Below, piece after piece: positions 4,670-21,750 of a stretch of 21,915 bases of DNA. The notes under the pieces were generated by a model, which saw only the letters and a list, made by a program, of their open reading frames with translations, was not told where the DNA came from and ran no database searches. Position 1 is the stretch's first letter, and each line of letters begins with the position of its first letter. Position numbers and translations under genes: made by a program. This DNA is from a virus: the IMG/VR virus record IMGVR_UViG_3300020183_003776, positions 1 through 21,915 of that record. The stretch is one strand, 5' to 3'.

Positions 4670-5439
4670 TTCAGTCTTGCCGTAATAAGTAAATGCCAAC
4701 CAAGATTTTTTTCAAGAGTCCTAAACATTTCTGGAGGCATAGATTCAAACCAAGGTTGTTTGATATATTCTCCACGCTTGTAAGGCTCTACTTGATATGG
4801 GAAGATGTGATCCTGTTCAATTGAAAGAACCTCATACCCATCCAACAATTCTATCACATCTTGCTTAGTATATGTATTTGCAATTGGACAACCATATTGT
4901 GCCTCTGGTTGATCCAATCCAGATTCAATCATATAATTTTTCCAAGAATCTTTTGCATAAAGCATAATCTTGAGAACACTATTCTCATTCATATACTTTT
5001 TGATCTCTGAAATGATCTTTTCTGGTTGAGGACTATGATGAATTACACCAAAAGAGTAAATTAGATCATAAGTTTCTACAGGTACAAATGAAGAAAGTTC
5101 CTCTGCATTACCAGAATAAAATTTTCCTTCCTGTTCAAGTACCTCAAATCTCTTCCTTGCAAGAGCAAGACTCTCTTCAGATAGTTCTACGCCAGTATAA
5201 TCAGCACCATTAGAGGCAAAATTAATACCAACAGTTGCAAGACCACAACCAATCTCTAGAACTTTTTTACATTCCCATTCAGGGAAGTTTGTGAATTCTA
5301 AAATGTGAGGTTCAACAAAAAACTTTTTTGTTTCAACTTCATCAAAATATTCTTTAGTGCCAACTTCTTTACTAGAGTGTCTGACATTACAGGGACGATC
5401 ATCCCAAAACTTTTTTACTTCTTCAATTGTTACTGTCAT
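4666..5439 (-). CDS. Class I SAM-dependent methyltransferase
   Basis: This 257-aa protein carries LEIGCGLATVG (61-71, SAM loop), the acidic end of strand 2 in TGVELS (82-87), YDLIYSFGVIHHS (124-136) and a post-motif KIMLYAKDSW segment. This is the usual layout of Methyltransf_11/25 enzymes. The N-terminal FWDDRPCNVRHS segment is one I associate with methyltransferases in cyanobacterial and cyanophage sugar clusters. The target is unknown; in this context O-methylation of a sugar is most likely. Both ends have ATGA overlaps, so translation is probably coupled. No membrane segment is seen. Confidence 0.8.
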   Translation of the reverse strand: MTVTIEEVKKFWDDRPCNVRHSSKEVGTKEYFDEVETKKFFVEPHILEFTNFPEWECKKVLEIGCGLATVGINFASNGADYTGVELSEESLALARKRFEVLEQEGKFYSGNAEELSSFVPVETYDLIYSFGVIHHSPQPEKIISEIKKYMNENSVLKIMLYAKDSWKNYMIESGLDQPEAQYGCPIANTYTKQDVIELLDGYEVLSIEQDHIFPYQVEPYKRGEYIKQPWFESMPPEMFRTLEKNLGWHLLITARLK

Positions 5440-6209
5440 AGTTTGAATGTAGGAATAGAAATCATTTTATGTTTATTTTGATTATGAAACTTTTGATAGA
5501 TATTTACCGCAAGAGTTTCTTCCTCGTTCAGAAACATGGGATCTTCATGAAGACCATTTTCCATTACCCACTCAAGCATTTCGTATGATGTTCCAATCTG
5601 ATCTTCATCAGTTCTCCCATCATCCCAGAGTCCATCTGTAGGTTTAGCATCAATAATACGTTGATCTACACCAAGATGCTTTCCAAGTTCCCATACTTCA
5701 GTTTTGTAAAGATCTGCGATAGGAGCAATATCTACCCCACCGTCACCATATTTAGTATAAAATCCTACACCGTAATCTTCAACTTTATTGCCAGTTCCAA
5801 TGACAATACCACCGACAGTTGTGGCAACTTGATAAAGAGTTACCATCCGAAGGCGAGAGCGACTGTTAGCAAGTGCAAGTTTATCTGCGCCATACTCTCG
5901 CATCGTAAATTGAAAAGTATCAAATGTTTTTGATAGATCAAACTTATTCACAATAATATTACCAAAGTTAGACTCAAGCCATTCTAAATGAGAGTCCGAC
6001 AGTGTTTCTTGTTCTTCTTTTTGATAGATTGGCATCCCTATCGCATAGGTACGAAGACCTGTTGATGCTGCAAGAGTAGATGCAACAGCAGAATCAATCC
6101 CACCAGAAACACCAACTACAAATGCCTTGATGTTATGCTCAATAACATAATCACCTAACCATCTGACAATTCTATCCTTAAGTTTTTCGTAATCTGTAAT
6201 ACGATTCAT
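5436..6209 (-). CDS. nadE: Ammonia-dependent NAD+ synthetase
   Basis: This 257-aa protein is the ATP-pyrophosphatase-type NAD synthetase. It has the PP-loop SGGIDS (35-40), RSRLRM (117-122), IGTGNKVEDYGVGFYTKYGD (137-156), IAPIADLYKTEVWELGKHLG (161-180) and KPTDGLWDDGRTDEDQIGTS (189-208). It amidates deamido-NAD to NAD+ using ATP and ammonia. There is no glutaminase domain, and the length suits the bacterial short form. The ATG at 6209 gives an ATGA overlap with the upstream gene; an in-frame ATG twelve bases earlier is possible. A central-metabolism enzyme inside a sugar operon is unusual. It may feed the NAD-dependent dehydratases, epimerases and dehydrogenase here, or refill NAD during infection. 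Confidence 0.92.
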   Translation of the reverse strand: MNRITDYEKLKDRIVRWLGDYVIEHNIKAFVVGVSGGIDSAVASTLAASTGLRTYAIGMPIYQKEEQETLSDSHLEWLESNFGNIIVNKFDLSKTFDTFQFTMREYGADKLALANSRSRLRMVTLYQVATTVGGIVIGTGNKVEDYGVGFYTKYGDGGVDIAPIADLYKTEVWELGKHLGVDQRIIDAKPTDGLWDDGRTDEDQIGTSYEMLEWVMENGLHEDPMFLNEEETLAVNIYQKFHNQNKHKMISIPTFKL

Positions 6210-7060
6210 AATACAACCCAATCTTCTACATAAAGGTCTTTAGTATCTTTGTCCGCATAAGCAGGACCAAACCACATTTGAGGTGCGATAACTCTTTTAT
6301 TAGGGTTGGAAATTAACCAAGCACCCCACCAACTCATACTGCTATTAGCAATAATAGCATGAGAACACAAAGACATCAAGCACAAATCAGCGTATGGAGT
6401 GTATGATCCATCTGCATATTTTTCTTGTGGTTCGGAAATTAAAAACCTATCACTTGAGAAAAACTCTTGTTCCTTTACCCATTCAGGAGAATCAGAAAAA
6501 ACAATTACTGGTTGATCTTTATCAAAATATGAAAGTGCTTTTTCATAATAATCAATAGTCTGAACTGGGTGCATTTCAGAGCACTGTGTATATGACCATT
6601 TAAATCCACGAGGGTCTGTAAGATTTGGATCCCCACGACGTACATGAAGCATGATAGGTTCTCCTTCTACAGAGTCTATCATCTCTTTACATGGTCCCAG
6701 ATGTTCGTCATGAAATGTAAAATCTTTACGAATCTCATCAGAAACATGTTGGAAATATTTTTCTGATTGGAAGAATCCATGCAAACTTACATTATCTGGA
6801 CACTGATTAAAAAGTTCTTCATCAAAATGAAAGAATCTTTCCTGAACATACTGATAATGATCAATATAATTTAAGTTGTCTTCTTGTGCAGATTCTAACT
6901 TAAAACATTGGTGAAGACTATAATTCTCAATACCTGCTCTACTAAATGGAGGAATGCACCAATCATAACCATGATGTGCAGCAATTCCACGAACTGCTGC
7001 ATACTCAAACATTTGGTTTCCCAAGCGTCCTAAATTACCGATTTGATTAAACGCTAACAT
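6206..7060 (-). CDS. GT11 glycosyltransferase (alpha-1,2-fucosyltransferase type), copy 1
   Basis: This 284-aa protein has the GT11 landmarks: GRLGNQMFEYAA (11-22), HVRRGD (139-144, the GDP-sugar binding motif), VIVFSDSPEWV (185-195), and NSSMSWWGAWL (239-249) followed by VIAPQMWFGP. GT11 enzymes transfer L-fucose from GDP-L-fucose in alpha-1,2 linkage, but no GDP-fucose pathway is present here. It is clearly related to the protein at 8609-9412 through shared blocks such as FQSEKYF and FDxELFNxC. The gene overlaps the upstream glycosyltransferase gene by 14 bases. No membrane segment is seen. Confidence 0.88.
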   Translation of the reverse strand: MLAFNQIGNLGRLGNQMFEYAAVRGIAAHHGYDWCIPPFSRAGIENYSLHQCFKLESAQEDNLNYIDHYQYVQERFFHFDEELFNQCPDNVSLHGFFQSEKYFQHVSDEIRKDFTFHDEHLGPCKEMIDSVEGEPIMLHVRRGDPNLTDPRGFKWSYTQCSEMHPVQTIDYYEKALSYFDKDQPVIVFSDSPEWVKEQEFFSSDRFLISEPQEKYADGSYTPYADLCLMSLCSHAIIANSSMSWWGAWLISNPNKRVIAPQMWFGPAYADKDTKDLYVEDWVVL

Positions 7061-7865: not shown

Positions 7866-8616
7866 CTGGATACCTCTTGTCGTTGATAAAAAAGTCCCTG
7901 TGCTTCACCATTAGATAATCAATCTCTTTACTATCAACTAACCATGAACCCTCTGGATGGTCTATTCGTGCGTCATACTGCATGGTATTGCTTGTGCGGT
8001 CTTCGTGCTCTCGGTTTGCAATTAAAATATCCGAAACAATATGCGGCATCCCGTGCTCAAATCTCATACGGTGATAGAACTCAACATCCACTAGCAATTT
8101 AAGTTGCGTATCCAGATACATCTTTGCTTCATTTAATAGAGCAACACACGATGGGCTACCAAGAAGATTGCGTCCTTCTAAAATCATATCACACCATCTT
8201 GGCACGCAATCACGATGCGTTTCTACACCGTCTGTCGTGTGTGTAAAACCATGAAACAACCACTTACAATCGGTCTCATCAAATCCTTGTTTGATTTTCT
8301 CAAGTGCTTTATTATCTACAAACAAATCATCTTGCATAATCAACTTGAGAATTCTACCTTCTGCATTTTCCATTACACAGTTAATATTAGAACCCTGAAA
8401 TCCACGGTCATTTGGATTTTTCATATAGACAATATTAAATTCTTTGCTGCTCCTCTCACAGAATTCCTGAATGACATTATCTTTACTATGATCGGATATA
8501 ACAATCTCAAAGTCTTGGAATGTTTGTTTCTGAAGACCATTAAAAATATCAGTGAGATATTTTACACCTTGTCCCTTAAATTCATAGGTGGGAATGCAAA
8601 CTGAAATTTCAGGCAT
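7855..8616 (-). CDS. Glycosyltransferase family 2
   Basis: The protein is 253 aa from MPEISVCIPTYEF, the classical first strand of GT2 enzymes. It continues with LQKQTFQDFEIVISDHS (28-44), a conserved Asn-Asp stretch (NPNDRGFQGSN, 67-77) and the acidic motif IMQDDLF (93-99) in the DxD position. GT2 enzymes transfer a sugar from a nucleotide donor with inversion. The ATG at 8616 is preferred because the 26 extra codons upstream read through the end of the previous gene and precede a perfect GT2 N-terminus. This leaves an 8-base overlap. No membrane helix is present, so it is not a processive synthase. Confidence 0.85.
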   Translation of the reverse strand: MPEISVCIPTYEFKGQGVKYLTDIFNGLQKQTFQDFEIVISDHSKDNVIQEFCERSSKEFNIVYMKNPNDRGFQGSNINCVMENAEGRILKLIMQDDLFVDNKALEKIKQGFDETDCKWLFHGFTHTTDGVETHRDCVPRWCDMILEGRNLLGSPSCVALLNEAKMYLDTQLKLLVDVEFYHRMRFEHGMPHIVSDILIANREHEDRTSNTMQYDARIDHPEGSWLVDSKEIDYLMVKHRDFFINDKRYPDEN

Positions 8617-9412
8617 CAATTCTCTCCCATCGTTCAGGAACCAAATCTCTATCATCAAGTCCTGCCTCTGGACCAAACCAGTTTGTTGGTGCAATTACAT
8701 GTTCAGAACCAGACAACCATGCACCCCACCAACTATAAGAACTATTCACTATAATATGATGAGAGCACATGGACATCAAGCACATATCATGAATATTATC
8801 ACTAGAGTCAGAAACCAGGAACCTATCATCTGAAAAGAACTCTTCACTCTTTACCCAATCAGGTTCATCAGAAAATACAATTACAGGCAAGTCTGGAAAC
8901 TTGGCAAGTGCTTTTTCATAATAACTATTGGGTTGGACTGGATGATACTTTGACTTTACTACTTGGTCTGTGCGACGAACATGCAATGAGATTGCTTTTC
9001 CATCAGGAACAATCTGGTCAAAGATTTCCTTACAAGTATTCCAGACATCATCTCTCCACACAAAGTCATCCCGAACATCTTGTGCAATGTGAGCAAAGTA
9101 TTTCTCTGACTGAAAATATCCATAGAGATTTACATTGTCTTCACAGGTATTAAAGAGTTCTTTGTCAAAAGTAAAACTTGCTTCCTGAACATAGGGTGCA
9201 GGAAATAAATTTACCTCTTTGACTGATGGCAACTTAAATGCCATAAAAAGTTTATGTTGGTTCTCCTCATCATTAAACTCTTCATCATTTATTGGTCCAG
9301 GAGGAATGCAGAAATCAAATCCGCGATTTGTTGCAATACCTTTAGTTGCAGCATACTGGAACATTTGATTACCAAAGCGACCATTTTTACCTAGGTGATT
9401 ATGTCCAATCAT
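8609..9412 (-). CDS. GT11 glycosyltransferase (alpha-1,2-fucosyltransferase type), copy 2
   Basis: This 267-aa protein shows GRFGNQMFQYAA (11-22), the donor-binding HVRRTD (144-149), VIVFSDEPDWV (177-187) and NSSYSWWGAWL (223-233), followed by VIAPTNWFGP. It resembles the GT11 protein at 6206-7060 throughout, including GFDFCIPP against GYDWCIPP, LYGYFQSEKYF against LHGFFQSEKYF, and CLMSMCSH against CLMSLCSH. The pair looks like an old duplication with two unrelated glycosyltransferase genes between the copies. HVRRTD in place of HVRRGD may reflect a different donor or acceptor. The start has an ATGA overlap. Confidence 0.88.
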   Translation of the reverse strand: MIGHNHLGKNGRFGNQMFQYAATKGIATNRGFDFCIPPGPINDEEFNDEENQHKLFMAFKLPSVKEVNLFPAPYVQEASFTFDKELFNTCEDNVNLYGYFQSEKYFAHIAQDVRDDFVWRDDVWNTCKEIFDQIVPDGKAISLHVRRTDQVVKSKYHPVQPNSYYEKALAKFPDLPVIVFSDEPDWVKSEEFFSDDRFLVSDSSDNIHDMCLMSMCSHHIIVNSSYSWWGAWLSGSEHVIAPTNWFGPEAGLDDRDLVPERWERIDA

Positions 9413-10083
9413 AGTTTTGTTCCCTCTGGAAGAAAGAAATGAAATCCAAATGGTTTAATACCCTGTGTTTCTGGTAATGGTCGTTCATGTGAGAACCTTG
9501 CTGCAACCTCAATCGGTGCAATCTTACAACCAAGTGCTTCATAGATATGACGATTATGAACACAGATATTCCCATCTTCTGATGTGAAACCAACATTCAT
9601 ATGCTTATAGAAGTTTCCCCAATTCACATCAAAATGAATGTATGCATGTTTGGGAACATCCAAAAGTTTCTTACTGCGGAATGAGAACCCACCATTGCCA
9701 ACACGATGTGGTTTTCCCCATGGATCAAGATAGGCATCATCAGCAAGTGCCCAGGGTGCTCCAATGTAATCATAATTAAACCAATCATCATCCCACATCT
9801 CTGGATTGATTACAAATCCATCTGGTTGGATGAGGAGACAGTAATCCGTATCAATATGATTAGTGAGATTATAGAGGCAATAATAGTTGTAATCGTGTAT
9901 AGATTTAATCTCATAACATTGAGAGAACTCAATGTTCTCTGGGAGATTACCAGGGTCTTCGTGTGTAATGAGTTTAACTGCACCAAACTTGATGCCCCTC
10001 ATACTATACTGAAGAACTTTGATTGCGTCCTGAACTTTATTTGAGGAGATGCAGAATAATGTTACATTTGGAAGCTCAATCAT
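9409..10083 (-). CDS. DUF5672-type putative glycosyltransferase
   Basis: This 224-aa protein has the pattern I know from DUF5672 proteins, which sit in sugar clusters and look like GT-A transferases. It shows LIQPDGFVI (84-92, an acidic donor-site-like segment), DYIGAPWA (105-112), RVGNGGFSFRS (127-137), then TSEDGNICVHNR (167-178) and a final HERPLP/PFGFHFF region. The activity is not established from sequence. Both ends have ATGA overlaps, next to GT11 genes on both sides, which supports a transferase role in the same glycan. No signal peptide or membrane segment is seen. Confidence 0.75.
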   Translation of the reverse strand: MIELPNVTLFCISSNKVQDAIKVLQYSMRGIKFGAVKLITHEDPGNLPENIEFSQCYEIKSIHDYNYYCLYNLTNHIDTDYCLLIQPDGFVINPEMWDDDWFNYDYIGAPWALADDAYLDPWGKPHRVGNGGFSFRSKKLLDVPKHAYIHFDVNWGNFYKHMNVGFTSEDGNICVHNRHIYEALGCKIAPIEVAARFSHERPLPETQGIKPFGFHFFLPEGTKL

Positions 10084-11015
10084 AAATCACCTTCATAGAT
10101 ATTGGATGTTACTTTATACTCTTCCCATTCTACCCTACATTCATCAGGTGTGAAAAGTTTTCCCCGTCTATCCATATAGTGCGTGGGATAATTATATATG
10201 CTACAACCAAGAGACCACCATCCTTGTGAGCGGTTAAAGTCAAACCAATACTTTGGAGCAATGCAGTATTCTAAAGTCTCACTCAACCACAGGGGCCAAC
10301 AAGCAAATGTAGATGCTCCACAAATCACATGCTTGGCATTCTTCAGTGCAACAAAATCCCATGCAAGTCCTTCATGATAAGCAGGATACTCTGGGAGAAC
10401 TTGATTAGCAGTTTTAACATCCTCAGTCACAATCGCAAATTCCATTTTAGGATTGTGAGCGACCATTGCTTTAATCGCATTATCATAATAAGACCGTGGC
10501 AACCAACACCCAGCATTACCAATCATATCGCTTCCACGAAAATTGATAATACAAATATTATCTCCTTGAGTATCTGTATGTTCGTAATCTGGTTTAACTC
10601 GCAACCACTCTTTGACCAAATCAAGTTTATCATAGAAATAATCTTCAGACTGAAAGAGACCATCAATCTTAGTATTGTCTGAAATCAGAAAGAGGTTCTT
10701 ATCTGTCAGACGAATATCTGTCTTAAGTTGGGGGTCAGTGTGCTTACCGTGTCGATATTCCACATAGTAGTTCTCAATACCTTCTGGCAATTCTGTAGGA
10801 GGACCACCTGGAGGACTAGATCCACCAATCACTTCACGACCCAAATCCAAATCCATAAAATGGACACCTTCAGTATTGTATCTACGGTCTCCTAAATTTT
10901 CTCTACCAGAAATACCAAACTCATAACCAAGATTAAGAGCAAGCATTCGGGTTGTAACATAGGCAAAGAGTTGATTGCCAAATCCTTGTCCGTGATAAAG
11001 TTCAGTAATAATCAT
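10080..11015 (-). CDS. Divergent GT11-like fucosyltransferase-type protein, copy 3
   Basis: This 311-aa protein begins with the GT11 signature HGQGFGNQLFAYVTTRMLAL (8-27). It retains the downstream FQSEDYF (121-127) and an altered donor motif, NFRGSD (158-163) instead of HxRRxD. Where the other copies have NSSxSWWGAWL it has GASTFACWPLWL, followed by IAPKYWF. A Gly/Pro-rich insertion (GGSSPPGGPP, 64-73) is unique to this copy. It is likely a GT-B transferase for a GDP-L-sugar, but the changes point to a different substrate from copies 1 and 2. ATGA overlaps at both ends. Confidence 0.72.
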   Translation of the reverse strand: MIITELYHGQGFGNQLFAYVTTRMLALNLGYEFGISGRENLGDRRYNTEGVHFMDLDLGREVIGGSSPPGGPPTELPEGIENYYVEYRHGKHTDPQLKTDIRLTDKNLFLISDNTKIDGLFQSEDYFYDKLDLVKEWLRVKPDYEHTDTQGDNICIINFRGSDMIGNAGCWLPRSYYDNAIKAMVAHNPKMEFAIVTEDVKTANQVLPEYPAYHEGLAWDFVALKNAKHVICGASTFACWPLWLSETLEYCIAPKYWFDFNRSQGWWSLGCSIYNYPTHYMDRRGKLFTPDECRVEWEEYKVTSNIYEGDL

Positions 11016-18822: not shown

Positions 18823-19357
18823 ACTTATCACACTCCTCAAGATATTTTCCTACTTGATCTTTAGCAGAAAGAGTTGGAATCCCATCTACTGGCCAATCAA
18901 TACCAATTTGTGGATCATTCCACATCAGGGTTCTATCAAATTCAGGGTAATAGTAATCAGTTTGTTTGTAGTTTATTTCTGCAGTTTCTGTAAGAGTGTA
19001 GAAACCATGAGCAAATCCAGGAGGAACCCAGATATGAATGTTGTTTTCACACAACTTTATACCAAACCAGTTTCCAAAAGTAGGAGAACTTTTCCTAATA
19101 TCGACGATTACATCATAGACAGCACCTTGAGTGCATCTAATTAATTTACCCTGAGCATGTTGAATTTGATAATGAAGTCCTCTCAAAACTCCTCTAGATG
19201 ACTTTGAGTGGTTGTCTTGAACAAACTCACTTTCAATTCCAGTTGCTTCTCTAAACTTTTTTAGATTAAAACTTTCAAGAAAGAATCCACGCTCATCTTC
19301 ATACCTTGGAGTAGTGATGATGTAAGCATCCTTTAAATTAATTTCTGTTGCTTTCAT
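18815..19357 (-). CDS. rmlC: dTDP-4-dehydrorhamnose 3,5-epimerase
   Basis: This 180-aa protein is a full-length RmlC cupin, with DERGFFLESF (21-30), SRGVLRGLHYQ (54-64, with the catalytic His62), Lys71, YDVIVDIR (81-88), VPPGFAHGFY (111-120) and YKQTDYYYP (130-138). The carboxyl-side WNDPQIGIDWP is also typical. It epimerises C3 and C5 of dTDP-4-keto-6-deoxyglucose, the product of RmlB encoded just upstream; the two genes overlap by 20 bases. An end product such as dTDP-L-rhamnose would still need a 4-ketoreductase, possibly the next SDR. Confidence 0.95.
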   Translation of the reverse strand: MKATEINLKDAYIITTPRYEDERGFFLESFNLKKFREATGIESEFVQDNHSKSSRGVLRGLHYQIQHAQGKLIRCTQGAVYDVIVDIRKSSPTFGNWFGIKLCENNIHIWVPPGFAHGFYTLTETAEINYKQTDYYYPEFDRTLMWNDPQIGIDWPVDGIPTLSAKDQVGKYLEECDKYE

Positions 19358-20264
19358 ACCATTTAATTGTCTGTTCTATACCGTTTTCAAAAGTAGTCAA
19401 AGGTCTCCAACCAAGTTCATCTTTAATTTTTGTAGCATCTGTAGCATACACTCTATCATGCCCTGGTCTATCTTCAACGAACTCAATTAAGTCTTCACTC
19501 TTATTTAAGGCACTACAAATATGTTTTACTAGATCAATATTGGTCATACCGTGATCACCACCAATATTATATTTTTCACCTACCGTTCCACCACTCCAAA
19601 CAGTTAGAAGTGCTTCACAATGATCCTGAACAAACAACCAATCACGAATTTGTTTTCCATCACCATACACAGGGACTTTTTTATTTTCTAAGAGATTGGT
19701 GATTGTCTTTGGAATCATCTTTTCCCTATGTTGCCTTGGTCCGTAGTTGTTAGAACAATTAGTAATAATGGCAGGAAGACCATAAGTGTTGTGATATGCC
19801 ATCACAAAATGATCACTCGCTGCTTTAGATGCAGAGTATGGATTTCTTGGATCATACAGTGTTGTCTCAGTAAATGGTTTATCTTTTACTGATCCATAAA
19901 CTTCATCAGTAGAAACATGAATGAATTTTTCTACTCCGTACATTACGGAGAGATTTAAAAGATTTACGGTCCCGCTTATGTTCGTGTTAATGAATTCCGA
20001 ACAGTCTTGAATAGAATTATCTACATGACTTTCTGCGGCAAAATGAAAGATTGTTTTTGGTTTATACTTCTCAAAAATATAATCACAGTCTTCTTCATTT
20101 GAAATATCAACTGTGTAGAGTATAACTGGATCAGGAATATTTTTCCAATCCGCAGCATAAGTCAATTTATCTACACAGACAATATCTTCTGCAAACCAGT
20201 CAATTGCATTGTGCAAGAAATTTGAACCGATAAATCCTGCACCACCTGTAACTAAAACCGTCAT
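19338..20264 (-). CDS. rmlB: dTDP-glucose 4,6-dehydratase
   Basis: This 308-aa extended SDR has TGGAGFIGSN (6-15), VDKLTYAADW (31-40, the RmlB signature after strand 2), HFAAESHVDNS (74-84), the catalytic STDEVYG (118-124, Thr-Asp-Glu) and Tyr143-Ser-Ala-Ser-Lys147. NNYGPRQ, IRDWLFVQDHC and RPGHDRVYA follow. The TDE triad separates dehydratases from epimerases. It converts dTDP-glucose to dTDP-4-keto-6-deoxyglucose, the entry compound for deoxysugars. It is somewhat shorter than the usual 330-360 aa. It is the first gene of the sugar island, 15 bases below a TATAAT and without a clear Shine-Dalgarno. No RmlA is in the window, so the host may supply dTDP-glucose. Confidence 0.94.
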   Translation of the reverse strand: MTVLVTGGAGFIGSNFLHNAIDWFAEDIVCVDKLTYAADWKNIPDPVILYTVDISNEEDCDYIFEKYKPKTIFHFAAESHVDNSIQDCSEFINTNISGTVNLLNLSVMYGVEKFIHVSTDEVYGSVKDKPFTETTLYDPRNPYSASKAASDHFVMAYHNTYGLPAIITNCSNNYGPRQHREKMIPKTITNLLENKKVPVYGDGKQIRDWLFVQDHCEALLTVWSGGTVGEKYNIGGDHGMTNIDLVKHICSALNKSEDLIEFVEDRPGHDRVYATDATKIKDELGWRPLTTFENGIEQTIKWYESNRN

Positions 20265-20278
20265 ACTTTTTTCTTTTT

Positions 20279-20307
20279 ATTATACTAAAAAAGGTGGGTT
20301 TATGCAA
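20279..20307 (-). promoter_or_regulatory. Promoter candidate for rmlB, overlapping a terminator hairpin
   Basis: On the minus strand a perfect -10 TATAAT (20279-20284) lies 17 bases from TTGCAT (20302-20307), a weak -35. The start point would be about 7 bases downstream, leaving a leader of under 10 bases before the ATG at 20264. The -35 and spacer lie inside the terminator hairpin and its T tract. Confidence 0.5.
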
Positions 20308-20313
20308 CCCGCC
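20287..20313 (-). terminator. Intrinsic terminator between the structured leader and rmlB
   Basis: On the minus strand GGCGGGTT and AACCCACC (arms within 20293-20313) pair with one C-A mismatch around a 5-base loop, followed directly by six T (20287-20292). It would stop transcripts arriving from the upstream small genes before rmlB. Its 5' arm can alternatively pair with a CCCGCCT inside the upstream structured repeats (20362-20368), suggesting conditional termination. Confidence 0.65.
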
Positions 20314-20459
20314 TCTGTAACTCAGGCTCGCCACTTGCCCTTTGACTGGAGGCAAGAAACCAGGCGGGAGAGAGTCCCATCCGCACCACTTGCTCTTTTA
20401 GGAAGCAAGAAACCTAAGGGGTCAAATTTGACTCCACCACTTAGTTTTGAAAAACTAAG
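20314..20459 (-). ncRNA. Candidate structured leader RNA with tandem pseudoknot units
   Basis: The stretch holds no gene below 20441 but strong repeated folding. Unit 1 has stem 20334-20339/20351-20356, and its loop bases 20346-20349 pair with 20360-20363 in an H-type pseudoknot. Unit 2 has stem 20389-20394/20404-20409, with 20398-20402 pairing to 20413-20417. A 7-bp hairpin (20418-20424/20429-20435) follows, then a third stem of 9 bp (20440-20448/20451-20459) that overlaps the stop of the small membrane gene. All three units begin CCACTT on the plus strand. The minus strand is chosen because the units are followed by a terminator and the rmlB start. The manA and wcaG RNA motifs, described in cyanophages near sugar genes, are the natural comparison; I cannot confirm identity. 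Confidence 0.55.
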
Positions 20460-20674
20460 AAAAGTTGGGACAGTTTTGCAATTTCATTCACTGAGAAGAA
20501 AACACATAAAATCAAAACATCATAGAGTTTTAATTTTATTGCAAAAGGTATAGTTAAAGCGCCACCAATAAACTTTACCAATAGTCCATATTTGAAATCT
20601 CCCCATAGCATGATTTGATAACCAAGAATGAGAAGAATGTTGCCGATGTATCTTAAGATATTTATTTTTGACAT
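20441..20674 (-). CDS. Small membrane protein, function unknown
   Basis: This 77-aa protein has three or so hydrophobic stretches: YIGNILLILGYQIMLWG (9-25), GLLVKFIGGALTIPFAI (30-46) and LYDVLILCVFF (50-60). The Gly-Tyr, Trp-Gly-Asp and Pro-Phe-Ala-Ile-Lys positions look conserved, and I recall similar short proteins in cyanophages. No function can be assigned. The ATG at 20674 lacks a Shine-Dalgarno; a run of seven C lies just upstream instead. The stop codon lies inside the third stem-loop of the structured leader. An overlapping reading frame (20520-20780) is less convincing. Confidence 0.65.
   Translation of the reverse strand: MSKINILRYIGNILLILGYQIMLWGDFKYGLLVKFIGGALTIPFAIKLKLYDVLILCVFFSVNEIAKLSQLFLVFQN
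20659..20666 (-). promoter_or_regulatory. Late promoter-like octamer inside the start of the small membrane gene
   Basis: The minus strand reads AATAAATA, identical to the octamer at 236-243. It lies about 200 bases upstream of the structured leader and could start a late transcript through the leader into rmlB. It is also coding sequence (Lys-Ile-Asn-Ile codons) in AT-rich DNA, so chance is a real alternative. Confidence 0.22.
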
Positions 20675-20715
20675 AAGGGGGGGTTCCGCTTATCCCGACC
20701 AGGGCGCTTTTTAAG
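20675..20715 (-). repeat. Short GC-rich gap with direct repeats and a C7 run
   Basis: Between the oxygenase and the membrane-protein gene the minus strand has TCGGGAT twice (the first copy overlaps the oxygenase stop) and seven C immediately before the ATG at 20674. There is no recognisable ribosome binding site. The G-rich repeats could pair with the C run and cover the start codon. Confidence 0.3.
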
Positions 20716-21261
20716 TCATCCCGAGACTGTAAGATTAAATGAAATACTAATTCTATCCTCGTGTGATTTGTTCGGTTCAACCATATGATGAATCCAAGAT
20801 GGGAAAATAATTAACATATTTTCTTCTGGTTCATAAAAATGATAGGTGTGCCCATCATTATAGTAATTCATATCCAATGAATTGCAAATGTGAAGTCTAG
20901 GATCATACAATCTAAGTCTTCCACAATTCTCTGGAGTTTTTACATAAAAGACACCAGATAGAAATACTCCATGATATGGTCCATGATTATGTAAATCATT
21001 CCAATCATTTAGTTTGTTTATATTTACCCAAAAATCAACACTAAGATCATTTAACTGTTTGTCAGGTCTAACTGGAACTAAAGATATAATTTCATTTAAT
21101 AGATCAGAGTCATAAAAATTATGACCTTGATATCCACCATTGTTAGATAGTTTTACTGAAGAAACAGTTTTTTGATGCTCTCTACATTTTTCTTCAAGGT
21201 ATGAAATATTTAGATCACACTTTTTAAGAAAAACATTTGTAGAGAACAAAGAATCAATCAT
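20716..21261 (-). CDS. 2OG-Fe(II) oxygenase family protein
   Basis: This 181-aa protein belongs to the double-stranded beta-helix 2-oxoglutarate/Fe(II) oxygenases common in cyanophages. The WNDLHNHGPYHGVFLSGVFY segment (87-106) holds the first metal histidine (His91 or His93) in the family's H-P-x-x-L-S-G-V-Y-Y context. LRLYDPR (116-122) follows, and IIFPSWIHHMVEP (151-163) holds the second metal histidine. RISISFNL (170-177) has the Arg that binds 2OG. The substrate is unknown; proposals for phage members include protein or nucleic-acid hydroxylation. It overlaps the upstream small gene by 8 bases and leaves a 41-base gap downstream. Confidence 0.85.
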   Translation of the reverse strand: MIDSLFSTNVFLKKCDLNISYLEEKCREHQKTVSSVKLSNNGGYQGHNFYDSDLLNEIISLVPVRPDKQLNDLSVDFWVNINKLNDWNDLHNHGPYHGVFLSGVFYVKTPENCGRLRLYDPRLHICNSLDMNYYNDGHTYHFYEPEENMLIIFPSWIHHMVEPNKSHEDRISISFNLTVSG

Positions 21262-21487
21262 CTTTCACATAACAAGGAACCCGATCTGGATCTAACCATT
21301 TTGCATATTCAATGTCTTCCATTGCTAGAGAACATTGCATACCGTTATCAAAGAGATAAATGTCATTCCAACGTTTGGTATAATAATTTTGTTTTTGAAG
21401 ACGGTAATCTGGTTTTCCATTTATCTCAAGGATACCCGCTTCTACAAAACGGTATCCCTCACGTTCAAAAAGAACTTTTGTTTTCAT
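21254..21487 (-). CDS. Hypothetical protein, cyanophage type
   Basis: This 77-aa soluble protein is rich in aromatic and charged residues (FEREGYRFVEAGILEINGKP at the start, WNDIYLFDNG in the middle). It has no motif that I recognise, no signal peptide and no membrane segment. The alternation of short beta-like stretches suggests a small beta-rich fold. Its ATG overlaps the upstream stop (ATGA) and it overlaps the oxygenase gene by 8 bases, so the three are co-translated. No function is proposed. Confidence 0.7.
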   Translation of the reverse strand: MKTKVLFEREGYRFVEAGILEINGKPDYRLQKQNYYTKRWNDIYLFDNGMQCSLAMEDIEYAKWLDPDRVPCYVKDD

Positions 21488-21699
21488 GCAACCTCAACGG
21501 ATTCAAGATCGCTAGCAACATATTCCATAAGCATCTCATAATCATCCAGAGGATCACCAGAGAATACTACACCCTCATTTTCATAGTACCGACGAACCTT
21601 TTTGTAGAGTTTCGGATTCTTTACATCAAGGTAGAAGTCGCCATTTGCAGCACCACGAAGGGTTTGAACGTCTTTCTTGAATTTTGCTGTGAGAGTCAT
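21484..21699 (-). CDS. Hypothetical protein, cyanophage type
   Basis: This 71-aa protein starts MTLTAKFKKDVQTLRGAANG and has a basic N-terminal half and an acidic C-terminal tail (DLESVEVA). I recall very similar short proteins in T4-like cyanophages, always unnamed. The ATG at 21699 is preferred because it lies about 16 bases below the expected transcription start of the strong promoter at 21722-21750; the longer reading runs through that promoter. No clear Shine-Dalgarno is present. It is followed by an ATGA overlap with the next gene. Confidence 0.75.
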   Translation of the reverse strand: MTLTAKFKKDVQTLRGAANGDFYLDVKNPKLYKKVRRYYENEGVVFSGDPLDDYEMLMEYVASDLESVEVA

Positions 21700-21721
21700 T
21701 GTTTTGTTTATTGACTTTGTT

Positions 21722-21750
21722 ATTATAAGAAAAATTGGGTTAAGAGTCAA
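21722..21750 (-). promoter_or_regulatory. Strong sigma70-type (early) promoter
   Basis: On the minus strand TTGACT (21745-21750) and TATAAT (21722-21727) are spaced by exactly 17 bases, 11 of 12 consensus bases. It sits just upstream of the 71-aa gene and downstream of the tRNA, and should be read by unmodified host RNA polymerase early in infection. Confidence 0.75.

Follow-up and report, generated by a model that had tools for sequence, protein, structure and literature searches.

The structured leader at positions 20287-20459 of the window, as we call the whole 21,915-base virus record analyzed here, lies on the minus strand and belongs to a known RNA family, wcaG. Comparison with its relatives points, with about even probability, to wcaG being a modular 3'-end or intercistronic RNA of the operon upstream of it, and not a ligand-gated attenuator, with a terminator-promoter junction at which cargo is exchanged. 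The family itself was already known; new here are an extended array, a predicted promoter embedded in the terminator and the linkage to upstream genes. All structural parts that the initial annotation had described between 20287 and 20459 are real, far beyond chance, while two amendments to that description emerge from comparative sequence analysis and prediction: the conserved RNA has a further upstream part at 20678-20732, and a predicted promoter overlaps the terminator. The interpretation of the leader as a switch is only partly supported.

When the window was scanned with cmscan against all 4227 Rfam families, positions 20320-20417 (minus strand) matched the wcaG RNA (RF01761) over model positions 1-98 of 98, with 102.3 bits and an E-value of 5.4e-19 (gathering threshold 42; E 1.3e-22 when the record was searched alone), so that the feature is a full-length member of the family. 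The initial annotation had suggested such a covariance-model search with manA and wcaG in mind; of its two guesses wcaG held and manA (RF01745) did not, since the scan, taken to E 5, brought no manA match in the window. Membership of manA is rejected on this result, although manA, too, is found in cyanophages close to sugar genes and tRNAs and is annotated near wcaG in S-CREM1. The wcaG RNA dates from 2010, when Weinberg et al. (PMC2864571) presented it as a candidate riboswitch, known almost exclusively from marine metagenomes and T4-like cyanophages, where it precedes exopolysaccharide or high-light genes. It was later annotated in several cyanophages (PMC9964418, PMC9602691, PMC10665884); none of the papers found reports a ligand or mechanism. 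The present locus has the same setting, as its upstream genes, assigned to phrog families, and the H element described below are arranged as in named Kyanoviridae isolates, and an RmlB-like gene of exopolysaccharide type starts at 20264. The 98-nt RF01761 model, which as used here scores hairpins only, contains neither the upstream PK0 unit nor the H element nor the terminator-promoter, whereas all three are present at this locus; moreover, the published wcaG is a 5' UTR or riboswitch candidate, whereas the RNA studied here tracks the upstream operon. A strict wcaG pattern gave no match in the bacterial and archaeal chromosomes of 84,980 species genomes, and a looser one gave 75, none of them cyanobacterial by title, which we take as chance matches, mostly in GC-rich genomes, judging from the titles alone.

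Homologues were collected with a degenerate core pattern, which retrieved at least 120 stretches of IMG/VR DNA, and 12 annotated isolates were added. After removal of one chance pattern match (L010) and of duplicates, at least 114 loci were retained, which are not phylogenetically independent and in which the pseudoknots PK1 and PK2 were parsed by simple rules. Each phage record carried a single wcaG locus (17/17), with phage Syn1 (GU071105.1) showing two adjacent weak matches at 167073-167284 (45 and 41 bits), the first of which is overlapped by a match to the H model.

The two tandem pseudoknots and the third stem-loop seen by the initial annotation, each opening CCACTT on the plus strand (three occurrences), are all present on the minus strand. 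In PK1 (20389-20417), UUAGG (20413-20417) pairs with CCUAA (20398-20402) and CUUGC (20405-20409) with GCAAG (20389-20393), after which UGGUG follows; in PK2 (20334-20363), CUGG (20360-20363) pairs with CCAG (20346-20349) and CUUGCC (20351-20356) with GGCAAG (20334-20339). The hairpin linking the two units (20363-20382, minus strand; GGAUGGG-ACUCUCU-CCCGCC) is part of the Rfam consensus structure, and its CCCGCC is invariant across homologues because it belonged to the search pattern. Compensatory changes, for which the initial annotation had proposed a test, support both pseudoknots. The PK2 loop helix was Watson-Crick paired in 96 of the 97 parsed loci among the matches listed, against a maximum of 54 with shuffled loops, and it took six sequences in the listed matches (CUGG, CAGG, CCAG, CCUG, CUAG, and CGAG). 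PK1 is shorter and weaker than PK2 and still well above shuffles, with a mean Watson-Crick run of 2.86 as compared to 2.02 ± 0.09 (shuffle maximum 2.26; 114 loci among the matches listed). The 207-nt region as a whole folds at a z-score of -2.9. By a strict pattern, the number of units varies from one to four between phages, and L007 and L118 carry arrays of four pseudoknot-like units. In L030 (about 1120-1200) and L079, unit 2 leads directly into a tRNA-Leu gene, the start of which, GUGGCGGAAUUGG, is similar to the GUGGCG motif found at the end of wcaG units. The GGA-containing loops could be considered as candidate protein-binding sites.

Beyond the Rfam model lies a related upstream unit, PK0 (20418-20459, minus strand), with a stem CUUAGUUUUUCAAAACUAAG and a UGGUGGAGUCA..UGACCC hairpin, the third stem-loop being located at 20440-20459. 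Among the 112 scorable loci in the matches listed, the PK0-like unit is of the GGTGGAG (GGTGGAGTC) type in 52 and of the CTGGTCGG type in 32. Further upstream, the H element (20678-20732, minus strand) comprises a 4-bp stem with a YGGR loop, an A-rich linker and CCCUGGUCGGGA. It precedes wcaG in 100 of the 102 listed loci whose upstream sequence covers 1 kb or more, and its stem is paired, with compensation, in 95-99 of 99 of the listed matches, three of the four pairs being far above shuffles. A covariance model of H recovered 20678-20732 at 50 bits as the sole significant match in the window; in the phage records H adjoins wcaG in 17 of 17, all strong matches lying no more than about 900 nt ahead of wcaG and four weak ones elsewhere (E 0.01-0.1), while against Rfam the element had no match up to E 10. 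The support for H is comparative, because taken alone its thermodynamic fold is no stabler than shuffles, and on such comparative evidence it is a conserved RNA element not reported before. The stop codon of the 2OG-Fe(II) oxygenase gene upstream is overlapped by H, and shortly after H comes the start codon of a 77-aa ORF (20441-20674, minus strand; phrog_2318, unknown function), which lies between H and PK0 and whose stop codon falls inside the PK0 stem; among 95 listed flanks, 29 contain a relative of this ORF in the 3 kb upstream. The conserved RNA, as delimited by these alignments, reaches beyond the Rfam model to include PK0 and H, wcaG being the 3' part of a modular array. A role of H as a mere provider of stop codons in three frames was rejected, the enrichment being modest (at least two frames in 76 of the 107 listed loci vs. 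a background of about 37%). By eye, in an alignment of 35 loci, the second loop base C/U goes with G/A four positions before UGG, a correlation that looks like a tertiary pair, with lineage effects possible.

The intrinsic terminator that had been placed after the units and before the first sugar gene is genuine (20287-20316, minus strand). Its hairpin (20290-20316), followed by a T6 tract (20287-20292), folds at -13.3 kcal/mol (z -4.3), and none of 200 shuffles was as good. Homologous terminator stems pair 6.75/7 against 3.75 when shuffled, with 28 different 5'-arm ends among the matches listed, and since the arms differ between loci yet pair almost perfectly, the hairpin is under selection as RNA. 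A probable sigma-70 promoter is predicted to overlap it (20279-20307, minus strand), with TTGCAT (20302-20307) in the -35 slot, a 17-nt spacer holding the T-tract, and TATAAT (20279-20284); the -35 slot sits in the loop and inner stem of the terminator hairpin, and the -10 box downstream of the T-tract. TTGCAT is a poor -35 that matches TTGACA at only three of six bases, which accounts for the absence of this promoter from the promoter listing of the window, and it occupies the exact slot filled by TTGACA in relatives. The terminator-promoter composite was found in 72 of the 110 loci among the matches listed (-35 slot TTGCAT in 33, TTGACA in 14, and TTTACA in 13; -10 exactly TATAAT in 51), whereas the remainder of these contigs, 2.2 million strand-bases in all, gave 37 composite matches, many of them spurious; such composites are thus rare elsewhere. 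Given this predicted overlap, the sugar operon probably has its own promoter. Hairpin and T-tract were lacking in 29 of the 110 listed loci, some of which enter a coding gene or a tRNA directly, so a mechanism that requires the terminator is not general. Away from wcaG, too, there are terminator hairpins that carry TTGACA in the loop and are followed, behind the T-tract, by a -10 box (for example in L017, about 363, plus strand, and L105, about 7128, minus strand), so that the composite is a more general cyanophage device.

Along the minus strand, the window begins with a tRNA-Met (21848-21774), followed by a predicted strong promoter, TTGACT-N17-TATAAT (21750-21722), two small genes of a conserved upstream operon (21254-21750; phrog_552 and phrog_481), the 2OG-Fe(II) oxygenase gene of the same operon (20716-21261; Pfam PF13759, 5e-22), the 77-aa ORF, the structured RNA and the sugar island. 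The first gene of the island encodes an RmlB-like nucleotide-sugar 4,6-dehydratase/epimerase (19338-20264, minus strand; Pfam GDP_Man_Dehyd, 1e-80; phrog_540), and the island extends over about 20 kb from 20264 to near the window edge. It also holds, on the minus strand, a NAD synthase-like gene (5436-6209; Pfam NAD_synthase, 4e-48) and three family-11 glycosyltransferase (fucosyltransferase-type) genes (6206-7060, 8609-9412, and 10080-11015), the third being weak and under the Pfam cut-off.

The flanks of the homologues behave differently on the two sides of the RNA. Genes of phrog_552 and/or phrog_481 occurred in 84 of 95 upstream flanks and in 0 of 85 downstream flanks among the matches listed, and tRNAs were present upstream in 88 of 96 listed loci. 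The first downstream gene fell into 35 families in the same listed set, near-identical cassettes precede different genes (L052/L068 and L051/L077), and in isolates the cargo downstream of wcaG consists of sugar genes, a tail fibre, tRNAs or hli/psbA. The sugar association is nevertheless not trivial, as in 58 of 85 listed loci the first 3 kb downstream contain a nucleotide-sugar epimerase relative. PK1 identity among the listed matches was 0.828 in pairs sharing only the left flank, 0.761 in those sharing only the right flank, and 0.760 in unrelated pairs; right-flank-only pairs showed a weaker but real similarity in PK2 and the terminator (PK2 0.803 vs. 0.765). Homology in left-flank-only pairs stops at +100 to +139 of the core, around the -10 box, in 97 of 124 listed pairs, while in right-flank-only pairs it begins at -60 to -20, the 5' edge of wcaG, in 70 of 142 listed pairs; the block is conserved in every pair, and this breakpoint pattern alone is therefore no proof of recombination within it. 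The conserved upstream genes, the PK1 similarity that follows the upstream flank and the homology breaks suggest that the RNA is part of the upstream operon, with cargo swapped at its 3' edge.

According to Weinberg et al., who grade wcaG "y" (probably) both as cis-regulatory and as a riboswitch (PMC2864571), a ligand-binding riboswitch would instead be present, i.e., wcaG would be a 5' leader in which a metabolite such as a nucleotide sugar, bound to the pseudoknots, alters read-through of the terminator. The strong conservation of the tandem pseudoknots and the epimerases downstream in 58 of 85 listed loci are in agreement with such a role, as is the terminator lying directly downstream at near-constant spacing: the distance from PK2 to the terminator loop is narrow (28-40 nt among the matches listed), which could reflect functional coupling and is the best hint for a riboswitch or for an RNA of the put/EAR type. 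The initial annotation had gone further and proposed that CCCGCCT (20362-20368) pairs with AGGCGGG in the 5' arm of the terminator (20308-20314), making terminator formation and folding of the upstream unit mutually exclusive. This 7-bp complementarity does exist in the window but is not conserved: a CCCGCCN pairing of at least 6 bp with the terminator 5' arm was found in just 12 of 80 terminator-bearing homologues among the matches listed, and cognate complementarity was no better than non-cognate (-9.39 vs. -9.27 ± 0.16 kcal/mol, with 8 of 40 shuffles as low, in the listed matches). A wider pairing test agrees, its mean energies containing sentinel values, so that only its cognate/non-cognate difference is usable. 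Loss of the pairing in close relatives, which the initial annotation itself had named as grounds for abandoning it, is seen in L008, L028, L040, L100, and L117, which share the linker GAGCCTGAGTTAC yet have terminator arms that cannot pair with it. The antiterminator pairing is accordingly rejected as a conserved mechanism, and no conserved expression platform exclusive with the aptamer fold was found, a result that covers only base-paired attenuation of this terminator. As for a switch controlling the island, the terminator and the sugar genes do follow the RNA as had been claimed, but the claim is weakened by the predicted promoter with which the next operon is provided in most loci, by the RNA tracking the upstream flank, and by the 29 of 110 listed loci without hairpin and T-tract; in addition, the cargo is not always sugar genes. 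Taken together, we consider a riboswitch unlikely.

The EAR RNA of the Bacillus eps operon lies before a terminator and a long polysaccharide operon, and wcaG could similarly be a processive-antitermination RNA of the EAR or put (HK022) type, which modifies the polymerase so that it reads through the terminator and a long operon with no small ligand. Like EAR, wcaG is followed at once by a terminator and in many cases by a long sugar operon, its multi-unit hairpin/pseudoknot form would suit such an RNA, and the outcome of the pairing tests fits a mechanism that needs no base-paired antiterminator. Neither EAR (epsC) nor put, however, had a sequence match in the Rfam scan of the window, the promoter overlapping the terminator would make read-through unnecessary for island expression, and some loci have no terminator or precede tRNAs. 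Antitermination is here only a candidate role, and we regard it as improbable.

At the borders of gene cassettes in T4-type phages, PeSL elements, which Arbiol in 2010 and Comeau in 2014 are said to have described, reportedly join a stem-loop terminator to a sigma-70-like early promoter. The present composite resembles them in uniting both signals in one unit (72 of 110 homologues among the matches listed; predicted TTGCAT-N17-TATAAT in the window) and possibly in cargo exchange at the element, and seems to differ in that a conserved multi-pseudoknot RNA precedes it and the -35 slot lies within the terminator hairpin. Breakpoints cluster at the block edges, a pattern that gene shuffling of the PeSL type could leave and that conservation of the block could yield by itself. 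That the block is purely a recombination or insulator module, kept for separating and swapping operons and with no regulatory job for its structure, is very improbable: the homology breaks and the likeness to the PeSL cassettes of T4-type phages, cited together with gene shuffling in a passage of PMC4503421, would fit it, but the compensatory changes in the pseudoknots and the H stem show that the RNA structure is under selection, something for which recombination by itself would have no need.

We return to wcaG as a 3'-end or intercistronic RNA of the upstream operon. The array, in the order H, optional 77-aa ORF, PK0, PK1, and PK2, stands at the end of the conserved tRNA/small-gene operon and overlaps stop codons of its genes. 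The T-tract may mark the end of that operon's transcripts, the pseudoknot array forming their 3' domain, and the promoter embedded in the terminator would drive most transcription of the sugar island. As for its function, the array may end translation and transcription, block decay, process the transcript or bind a factor, and the whole block could act as a PeSL-like junction for the exchange of cargo operons. More tentatively, and with a probability somewhat short of even, wcaG may be the 3' half of a larger multi-pseudoknot RNA, including the H element and the optional ORF, that serves as a functional 3'-end domain fused to a terminator-embedded promoter, into which sugar, tail-fibre or photosynthesis cargo plugs.

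Since 2010 wcaG has been a riboswitch candidate, and regulation of exopolysaccharide genes is often ascribed to it in annotations that name no ligand or mechanism. Should it be part of the upstream operon, screens for sugar-compound ligands may target the wrong gene set, and the annotations copied into cyanophage papers would have to be corrected. Predictions on where transcripts end and on how these phages exchange large cargo islands would, moreover, follow from the longer array and from the promoter placed in the terminator.
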